DNA of 64,000 bases from Candidatus Saccharimonadota bacterium. Its GTDB lineage: Bacteria; Patescibacteriota; Saccharimonadia; Saccharimonadales; Saccharimonadaceae. The translations under genes and the position numbers were made by a program. Below, one piece after another: positions 10,907 to 12,797 of this stretch (position 1 is the first letter of the stretch; every line of letters begins with the position of its first letter). The notes under the pieces were generated by a model. That model was given only the letters and a program-made list of their open reading frames with translations. It was not told where the DNA came from and made no database searches. The stretch spans positions 124,001 through 188,000 of the forward strand of contig JAATFU010000005.1 in assembly GCA_015655045.1 (NCBI GenBank). Reading direction: 5' to 3'.

Positions 10907-12037
10907 TTACGCATCGACACCAATCGCGTCGTAAATCGAGCTAAACCCATCAGCTCTCACTAATCTTGCGAGCTCTCGGTTAATTTGACCAATGAGCTGG
11001 GGGCCTTGAAAAATCATACCGGTAATTAATTCAACGAGACTTGCCCCTAGCCGTATCTTTGTGTAGGCATCTTGGGCCGAGAAGACGCCACCCACACCAA
11101 TAATCGTAAATCGCTTACCGTAGTGGGTATAGGTTTCTTTAATAAGACGATTGCTTAGTTCATAGGTTGGTTTACCACTTAGGCCACCCTTCACATAGTC
11201 AGGCAGCTCCTCGAGGAACGTAATCTTTGCTCGATCTTTCGTGAGGTTACAGATCGTAATACCACTCACGGTATGACGGGCTGCTACTTGAAGCAGATCA
11301 TCAAATTGCTTCCAGGTGAGATCACTGGGCATCTTTAGGAAAATGGGCTGAGCTAGCTTTACCTTATCAACTGCCGTAAGCAGTCGATCAAGACTCTGGG
11401 CTTGAGTAAAAGGTTCTCCACCGTAGGTGTTGGGGCAGGAAATATTAATGGTAATCATTGCTGCCACGGCTGTTTGCTTTACTTTGCGTAGTCCTCGTAT
11501 ACAGTCAGCTATCATGCCAGCTTCAGTGTGAACGCTCGGGATGTTTGTATGCGCAATAGAGACGTTGAGGGGAAAATTTGTGAAGGTATCTTTTGGATAC
11601 TTCTTGAGACGCGCCATTACCTGGTCGGCACCCTGATTACCCAGCCCGGCATGAACAACCAGTGATTTCGTGTGTGGCAAGCGGTAGAACCATGGGCGAG
11701 GATTACCAGGACCAAATTGATTTGTCACCGTTCCCCCTTCCATAAAACCAAAACCAATTGAGTGGAGGATGCGTGGTAATTCAATATTCTTATCAAAGCC
11801 CGCTGAGAGTCCAATGGGATTGGTAAAGACGATATCGTGAATAGTTTGCTTGAGAACCGGTAAGTCCTCATACGCATACGTAGTACGCAGTAATCGTCGC
11901 ACTACGCGATTCTTTTGCAGCCATGCACCCAGACGCAGCATATCACTATGAACCCTATCTGGACTCACCTTAAAGGCAATCGGTTTAACGACGGAACGAT
12001 AGATAGATCCACTAAGCTGGCTTACAAAAATAATCAT
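10907..12037 (-). CDS. pyrD: Quinone-type dihydroorotate dehydrogenase-like flavoprotein (376 aa)
   Basis: The fold and length are those of class 2 PyrD: an N-terminal amphipathic helix for quinone access (residues 1-40, with VSPDRVHSDML) and an FMN barrel (NPIGLSAGFDKN, ITICNLTKDR, GGLSGKPTYELSNRLI, GVGGVFSAQDAYTKI). The active site is unusual. The catalytic base, Ser175 in E. coli, is Cys here (NISCPNT), as in class 1 enzymes. The orotate-contact loop reads VVHAGLGNQG where E. coli has INRMGFNNLG, losing the Asn and Arg. No other pyrimidine genes are in the window. ATG 12037 fits the family N-terminus; a GTG start at 12052 is possible. It could feed electrons to the quinone used by the bo3 oxidase. 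Confidence 0.82.
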   Translation of the reverse strand: MIIFVSQLSGSIYRSVVKPIAFKVSPDRVHSDMLRLGAWLQKNRVVRRLLRTTYAYEDLPVLKQTIHDIVFTNPIGLSAGFDKNIELPRILHSIGFGFMEGGTVTNQFGPGNPRPWFYRLPHTKSLVVHAGLGNQGADQVMARLKKYPKDTFTNFPLNVSIAHTNIPSVHTEAGMIADCIRGLRKVKQTAVAAMITINISCPNTYGGEPFTQAQSLDRLLTAVDKVKLAQPIFLKMPSDLTWKQFDDLLQVAARHTVSGITICNLTKDRAKITFLEELPDYVKGGLSGKPTYELSNRLIKETYTHYGKRFTIIGVGGVFSAQDAYTKIRLGASLVELITGMIFQGPQLIGQINRELARLVRADGFSSIYDAIGVDA

Positions 12038-12135
12038 ACGAGACCTGAGCACTCCTTTGTTACAACGACATGTGGCAGAGTATTAGACGATTGAGTCATA
12101 TACATGCATAATAGGCTACGTACTCAACTTTTGTC

Positions 12136-12151
12136 TGTGACCTTTGTCACA
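12136..12151. promoter_or_regulatory. Perfect CRP-type box upstream of the CRP/FNR regulator gene
   Basis: TGTGAC-N4-GTCACA is a perfect dyad and matches the E. coli CRP consensus TGTGA-N6-TCACA at all ten positions. It ends 10 nt before ATG 12162, so binding there would block the gene (autorepression). It is also 99 nt from the divergent pyrD start. Confidence 0.8.
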
Positions 12152-12161
12152 TAGGATCTCT

Positions 12162-12797
12162 ATGGCACTCGATACTCACCCCGCTTCTTCTCTTACCGCC
12201 TTCTTTAGTCGCTTCCCTCAAAAGCATTTTGCAAAGGGGGAGCTTATTCTCTATCCAAGTGATGAGCACCTGCCGAAGATCACCTATATTGAAGAGGGTA
12301 TCGTTGCCCAGTACGCCATCCACGCGAGTGGCACAAAAGTTATTGTTAATATCTTTAAAGCGGGAGCCTTCTTCCCTGCCGCCTCGGCAGTTAACCACAC
12401 ACTGAACACCTACTTCTTTGAAGCGTCTACCGAGGTAACTGGTCGTCAAGCCGAGCCGCAGGCGGTCGAAGAACTCTTACATCACAATCCCGCTATTACC
12501 TACGATCTTCTACAACGAGTCTATCGAGGTACCGACGGGCTACTCGGTCGCCTGAGTCTATTGCTCGATGGTAGTGCTCGAAGTAAACTTCTTTACGAGT
12601 TGGTAATTAGTAGTGAACGATTTGGAGAAATTATCCCTGAGGGCCGATTGCTTCGTATTACCGAAGATGAACTAGCTCAGCAAATCGGTCTGGCACGCGA
12701 AACGGTGAGCCGAACCTTGAAAACATTACGCACCGAGGGTCTTGTCAGTCTACAGCGGGGAGCCATTCTGCTCTACAGCCACGCCCTTCAGGCATAG
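12162..12797 (+). CDS. CRP/FNR-family transcriptional regulator (211 aa)
   Basis: The N-terminal cyclic-nucleotide-binding-like beta-roll (residues about 20-120) is followed by a dimer helix and a winged helix. The recognition helix reads LARETVSRTLKTL, keeping the Arg-Glu...Arg residues with which E. coli CRP reads TGTGA. There are no Cys residues, so it is not an Fe-S FNR. The cAMP pocket residues of CRP are not obvious, so the ligand is unknown. AGGA lies 5 nt before ATG 12162; an upstream TTG at 12144 is inside the operator and less likely. The 3' end overlaps the convergent membrane-protein gene by 10 bp. Respiratory genes nearby make redox or energy control plausible. Confidence 0.88.
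   Translation: MALDTHPASSLTAFFSRFPQKHFAKGELILYPSDEHLPKITYIEEGIVAQYAIHASGTKVIVNIFKAGAFFPAASAVNHTLNTYFFEASTEVTGRQAEPQAVEELLHHNPAITYDLLQRVYRGTDGLLGRLSLLLDGSARSKLLYELVISSERFGEIIPEGRLLRITEDELAQQIGLARETVSRTLKTLRTEGLVSLQRGAILLYSHALQA

Follow-up and report, generated by a model that had tools for sequence, protein, structure and literature searches.

The oxygen regulators FNR and ANR act on genes for anaerobic ribonucleotide reductase, fermentation and arginine deiminase. In E. coli, class II CRP sites centre at -41.5, as given in the accessible part of PMC5957442. SdrP, TTHB099 and DdrI are described in the accessible text of PMC12937710 as acting without ligand, with the SdrP type controlled by its amount. 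For the Saccharibacterium T. rhizospherense, five FNR-family regulators were reported and suggested to detect O2, and a phosphoketolase with a neighbouring acetate kinase was described; the accessible part of that account gives no binding site, regulon or promoter geometry (PMC6031116). In the open-access papers on regulation in Saccharibacteria and Patescibacteria that were listed, and as far as their text was accessible, neither a binding code nor a regulon was seen for any regulator of the Patescibacteria.

The locus compared here lies in a window (the whole 64,000-nucleotide stretch of DNA that was analyzed) belonging to a Candidatus Saccharimonadota genome of 848,230 bases in 8 contigs. 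Its crp gene (P0001; 12162–12797, forward strand; ATG at 12162, stop codon ending at 12797) was identified by ORF, Pfam and structural model as encoding a CRP/FNR-family regulator of 211 aa. Exactly 10 nt separate this ATG from a CRP-type operator, the perfect palindrome TGTGACCTTTGTCACA (12136–12151, no strand assigned), which a motif search found to be the sole perfect copy of TGTGA-N6-TCACA in the window and in the 848-kb genome. Sites with at most two mismatches numbered 16 in the window, fewer than in dinucleotide shuffles (mean 28.5). The regulator gene, its RETVSR helix and the palindrome 10 nt before its start had all been pointed out in a first-pass annotation, and each was confirmed with exact coordinates. 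The open reading frames read in the window also include MurA, cyoABCDE, a type II NADH dehydrogenase and type IV pilus genes. The cyo operon was rejected as a direct target in the window, as no site with two or fewer mismatches lies near it. In another genome (L104, G118:C58) a CRP homologue adjoins a cyoABCDE operon, and cyo is also near crp in the window.

Divergent from crp lies pyrD, a predicted target encoding a quinone-dependent dihydroorotate dehydrogenase (10907–12037, reverse strand; TIGR01036 above cut-off). Its ATG, at 12037, and the palindrome are 98 nt apart. Spacing analysis placed a predicted pyrD -10 element, TATTAT, 22 nt past the palindrome (12108–12113, reverse strand). No TANNNT was found at gaps of 18–25 nt on the crp side. 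A weak candidate crp promoter (TAGACG, 17 nt, CATAAT; 12084–12112, forward strand) was recognized by its match to the consensus, and its -10 overlaps the pyrD -10 on the opposite strand, the two standing back to back; such matches were not above chance, with 2 seen versus 1.2 expected in shuffles. The sequence AGGA, read as a possible crp ribosome-binding site, adjoins the operator (12153–12156, forward strand). Judged from the sequence, this geometry points to the divergent pyrD, and a class II promoter for crp would not fit in. The palindrome is probably first of all a pyrD site, and repression of crp would be its second role.

The regulator scored above cut-off for HTH_Crp_2 (PF13545), Crp (PF00325) and cNMP_binding (PF00027; 32.8 bits versus a cut-off of 27.5), and thus combines the cNMP_binding-type domain and Crp-type winged helix of the CRP/FNR superfamily. 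An AlphaFold model made from a 41-sequence alignment (pLDDT 93.8) had CRP chains as its best structural matches among those listed, with Z about 20, and the best 50 matches listed include CRP, Vfr, GlxR, NtcA, Clp and Cmr. By sequence, the closest solved chain is 2zcw (E 5.8e-10), which the result table names only as FNR/CRP family and which we take to be SdrP; E. coli CRP came next. The named relatives are mostly Candidatus Saccharibacteria, and together with the gene content of the window they place the genome in Saccharibacteria/Patescibacteria.

ORF translation and alignment located the recognition-helix codons R179-E-T-V-S-R184 at 12696–12713 (forward strand). In the alignment, R179, E180, T181 and R184 show no variation (41 of 41 proteins), and R179, E180 and R184 are the equivalents of the CRP base-reading residues R180, E181 and R185. 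Base-reading residues and operator of cAMP-CRP are both present here. The putative effector domain, of cNMP_binding type by Pfam and alignment (residues 21–108; 12222–12485, forward strand), gave a different picture. CRP residues E72 and R82 align with A73 and N82, and the cAMP-CRP phosphate-binding cassette with E72 and R82 was not found. Among the 41 rows, column 73 holds no E (one row has a gap) and is mostly M, column 82 holds no R and is mostly N, and the neighbouring column 72 has E in one row and is otherwise mostly P. The earlier statement that the effector pocket is not CRP-like was therefore borne out, and the DNA-reading part of the protein can be described as CRP-like while the sensor part is not. 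The NCBIfam CRP equivalog scored far under its cut-off (49 versus 266 bits), and the FNR, FnrL, FixK and NtcA models likewise fell far below theirs. There is no Cys in the window regulator. No Cys column is conserved in the alignment (best column 14/41; 15 of the 41 rows have no Cys at all), nor is any His column (best 20/41), and the cysteine ligands of an FNR [4Fe-4S] cluster are absent. The same Cys and His counts are what the alignment shows with regard to haem sensors of the CooA/DNR type. The pocket and the lack of Cys suggest a regulator that neither employs cAMP the way CRP does nor carries a cysteine-ligated Fe-S cluster as FNR does. That this protein reads the window palindrome is very probable.

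The first-pass annotation had proposed that the whole regulon could be found by motif search and that a lack of motif enrichment near starts would count against its proposal. In its own genome the search did not perform in this way. Apart from the single perfect site there were 17 one-mismatch sites versus 22 for a reversed control, which is no enrichment; of these 18 sites in all, 13 sit within ORFs. Across the family an association was seen. A homologue was present at E ≤ 1e-5 in 81 of 199 genomes, and perfect sites numbered 158 in these 81 and 47 in the 118 without it, as compared to 67 and 100 for the reversed motif. This corresponds to 1.95 perfect motifs per genome with the regulator and 0.40 without (control, 0.83 and 0.85); at least one perfect site occurs in 67 of the 81 and in 26 of the 118. 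The p-value of 3e-17 for this co-occurrence is too small because the genomes are related, but the reversed control stays level. When 80 of the 118 regulator-lacking genomes were searched with a profile, four further matches appeared, two of them partial. With the helix residues invariant and the motif co-occurring with the regulator, use of an E. coli-type DNA code across the family is supported by sequence comparison, as had been suggested. Since co-occurrence in the family goes with a flat motif count in the genome itself, the lack of enrichment strikes only the raw motif in a single genome. The regulon appears to be visible only via genome comparison plus -10 spacing.

The idea for the spacing analysis came from two promoters of this genome, those of ackA and pyrD, and the analysis was then extended to all sides. 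On 114 gene-facing sides, defined as those of intergenic sites with a gene start 25–160 nt away, TANNNT was found at gap 21 in 32 cases and at gap 22 in 17, with no more than 7 at any other gap up to 59. After near-duplicates were removed, 48 of 110 sides carried TANNNT at one of these two gaps, compared with a background of 3.3% per gap, and 62 did not; counted by site, 47 of 88 had it on at least one gene-facing side. A weaker peak was present on the 148 other sides, which lie in genes or have no start in range (16 at gap 21 and 4 at gap 22, with no other gap exceeding 11), and misplaced starts could explain it. The reversed-motif control for spacing gave only 2 sides in the fetched loci and is uninformative, as the loci had been chosen for the motif. 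By arithmetic, a 16-mer centred at -41.5 and a -10 element at -12 to -7 leave 21 nt between them. The peak at 21–22 nt therefore gives these sites the geometry of class II activator sites, and the window pyrD promoter shares it, with a gap of 22 to TATTAT and a transcript start that is predicted only. In two loci, L080 (pyrD/ribonucleotide reductase) and L088 (pyrD/xfp), one palindrome has class II geometry on both sides, and L135 is nearly two-sided, with a gap of 21 to pyrD and 20 to ackA. Spacing at other CRP-like genes is mixed (no -10, 20 or 21), so autoregulation may be activating in some species. In a separate observation on 310 upstream regions (window and L076–L115), TANNNT was located at -12 before the ATG in 45 and at -13 in 29, and no other position exceeded 18. 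Many transcripts of this group look leaderless.

The genes next to perfect sites were then compared, with starts and intergenic status approximate because of the simple gene caller used (longest ORF of at least 60 aa). Among distinct perfect sites in the examined loci, 106 of 131 were intergenic and 25 inside ORFs; the 131, own site included, are drawn from 205 perfect sites in the 199 genomes and come mainly from genomes with a strong regulator match. For 30 homologues (own included, one per genome), a perfect site was found within 200 nt upstream in 6 and a site of at least 9/10 in 9. A site of at least 9/10 was found within 250 nt in 14 of 64 named loci, which belong partly to the same genomes as the 30 and were drawn from 79 after 3 truncated and 12 distant ones were left out. 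Shuffled upstream regions of pyrD and ackA (about 250 nt) contained a perfect site in about 0.03% of cases and a 9/10 site in about 1%, which puts the counts upstream of the 30 homologues above chance.

Downstream of perfect sites, 19 CRP-like proteins from more than one CRP subfamily were found. The description of the window protein as an autoregulator thus gains from the many CRP-like genes with such sites, and it loses in that the geometry in the window faces pyrD and makes the crp role secondary. Other downstream clusters are PyrD (6), class II-type ribonucleotide reductase (5), acetate kinase (4), NrdD (3), phosphoketolase (3) and ribonucleotide reductase small chain (2). The class II reductase calls rest on NCBIfam RTPR scores of 260–277 bits, under the curated 340, together with Pfam and clustering. 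A ribonucleotide reductase alpha subunit, an arginine deiminase (above cut-off), a weak flavodoxin match and Hsp20 occur once each, and many further downstream genes are unrelated singletons. A family of about 160 aa accounts for 6 downstream entries, with one gene counted twice, and the one member scanned had no Pfam match; its perfect sites (L154 1501 and 1555, L098, L099, L157, L191) have a -10 at gap 21–22 and once form a tandem pair. In a second CRP-like group, with REST[AT]K-type or similar helices (RESTAK, RETTSK, RESVSK), the regulator genes are likewise preceded by perfect sites (L169, L069, L184, L137, L180, L181, L178). This group may share the code; statements on CRP subfamilies rest on profile scores plus helix residues.

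Upstream regions of individual target families were also scored. For pyrD, 30 regulator-bearing genomes were searched and 16 of them had the gene; it is preceded in 7 by a site of at least 9/10 (6 of them perfect), in 10 by a site scoring at least 8, and in 9 by no 9/10 site. For 17 pyrD genes from 16 of 80 regulator-lacking genomes, only 1 had a site of at least 9/10 (Fisher p 0.015). For ackA in regulator-bearing genomes, 6 of 19 had a site of at least 9/10, 4 of them perfect, and 13 had none; four of these ackA matches begin at query residue 76–83, which makes the start uncertain, and one has only 117 nt upstream. Sites shared by two neighbours were counted for both (pyrD/ackA in G041, G083 and G105; pyrD/xfp in G153). 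As a target in its own right xfp was rejected, with a perfect site in 2 of 18; these 18 are the scored rows of 24, six partial or broken ones having been left out, and xfp often follows ackA. In one 98%-complete single-contig genome, G117, pyrD is preceded by a perfect site (G117:C1:869557-869572, L352) whose -10 lies at gap 21. No CRP homologue was found in G117, which would mean recent loss or a missed regulator.

In the genome of the window itself, ackA, followed by xfp (G000:C6), is preceded by the 9/10 site CGTGACCCACATCACA. Four of the five intergenic sites with at most one mismatch have a gene-facing -10 at gap 20–22: pyrD 22, ackA 20, a 67-aa gene 21 and a 212-aa gene 21, with none at L006. 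The sites before the 67-aa and 212-aa genes (L009, G000:C8:33909-33924; L014, G000:C8:235458-235473) match at 9/10. Neither product has a Pfam match, and the 212-aa product, read by eye, looks exported and Ser/Thr-rich. The genome's own ribonucleotide reductase was rejected as a target; the best sites in its 8-kb stretch are 8/10 and none lies just upstream. The genome has one paralogue of the regulator, at G000:C8:229851-230420 (L102 9761-10453), and the best site upstream of it is 7/10.

Taken as a whole, the data are best explained by a class II activator of pyrD and ackA-xfp that represses crp and is independent of cAMP in the CRP manner, a reading to which we give a probability of about 0.68. 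A CRP/FNR-family dimer would bind TGTGA-N6-TCACA through its CRP-type recognition helix, replace the -35 element and activate promoters with a -10 at 21–22 nt past the palindrome. Bound at 12136–12151, it would recruit polymerase to pyrD (TATTAT, gap 22) much as E. coli CRP does at class II promoters, and we consider such activation of pyrD likely. The same binding would block crp transcription: the candidate -10 elements of crp and pyrD stand back to back, with the operator situated between the former and the crp start, so that binding should exclude or block crp. For autorepression we regard the odds as about even. The second target in this genome would be the ackA-xfp operon, with its 9/10 site and a gap of 20 to the -10, and the two genes without assigned function (67 and 212 aa) are probable further targets. 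The site, the code residues, the co-occurrence, the spacing and the target families are seen directly in the sequences, whereas binding, activation, autorepression and stimulus are inferred from them.

As to the stimulus, ribonucleotide reductases, a quinone-linked dehydrogenase and substrate-level ATP formation have oxygen or redox/energy state as their simplest common factor. The regulator may adjust nucleotide reduction and ATP-yielding fermentation to this state through a ligand or its own amount, and from the targets in relatives this is the most likely adjustment; control by amount is possible in view of the ligand-free action of SdrP, TTHB099 and DdrI. An oxygen/redox regulon as such is put forward tentatively, at somewhat less than even odds. 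Class III ribonucleotide reductase works without oxygen and PyrD requires oxidised quinone, so the sign of regulation may differ between targets. With similar reserve, a wider proposal can be made, that a cyclic-nucleotide-independent Patescibacteria CRP subfamily uses the E. coli operator and class II geometry to run a compact oxygen/redox regulon (ribonucleotide reductase classes I, II and III, quinone-linked PyrD, phosphoketolase/acetate kinase and arginine deiminase), sometimes with two divergent promoters per palindrome, and that the window palindrome turns pyrD on and crp off.

The recurrence of pyrD and ribonucleotide reductases among the targets would also suit a regulator of nucleotide status (dNTP, pyrimidine) in place of oxygen or redox; acetate kinase, phosphoketolase and arginine deiminase are targets as well, and we consider this unlikely. 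Somewhat less likely still is a purely autoregulatory crp operator with pyrD as no target. The palindrome is 10 nt from the crp ATG versus 98 nt from that of pyrD, and the 19 CRP-like genes downstream of perfect sites fit such a role, but only the pyrD side has a -10 at class II distance, and in L083, L085, L088, L135 and L080 the site precedes pyrD while crp lies 3' of pyrD, elsewhere or 2.5 kb off.

Two further explanations concern the reader of the motif and its ligand. A genuine CRP that responds to cAMP or another cNMP through a divergent pocket would agree with the Pfam cNMP_binding score and with the fold, for which cAMP-type CRP, Vfr and GlxR are among the best structural matches listed. 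The lack of E and R at the E72 and R82 positions in 41 proteins and the low NCBIfam CRP score speak against it and make it improbable. The least credible possibility, which we hold to be highly improbable, assigns the sites to Rex or a different redox repressor and leaves the CRP-type protein as a bystander. In its favour, the motif is contained in the Rex consensus of S. aureus, TTGTGAAW4TTCACAA, and anaerobic genes are under Rex control, according to the accessible part of PMC2883068; TGTGAA-N4-TTCACA sites also occur in some AT-rich genera. PF06971, the N-terminal family of Rex, matched in 0 of 199 genomes and was positive in 7 of 14 control genomes, and Rex was rejected as the motif reader on this ground; in addition, the sites track the presence of the CRP-type protein and sit at its gene, and their distance to the -10, of class II type, suits an activator. 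The class II activator remains the preferred reading.

Motif plus -10 spacing provides a testable, sequence-only map of activated promoters in mostly uncultured organisms, and it links the genes for ribonucleotide reductase and fermentation to a regulator of CRP type. Compared to FNR and ANR, the regulator is alike in the kind of target (anaerobic ribonucleotide reductase, fermentation, arginine deiminase) and unlike in that the aligned proteins have no conserved Cys and the operator is of CRP type, not FNR type. The oxygen reading is in line with the O2 suggestion made for the FNR-family proteins of T. rhizospherense. The regulator resembles the effector-independent SdrP/TTHB099/DdrI type in that 2zcw is its best sequence match among solved chains, with only about 180 residues aligned at low identity. 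With E. coli CRP it shares the fold (Z about 20), the helix R-E-T-V-x-R, the operator TGTGA-N6-TCACA and class II spacing, and it differs in having no equivalents of E72 and R82 and few predicted targets. The motif and its -10 spacing also suggest that class II geometry has been kept in a reduced and distant lineage.
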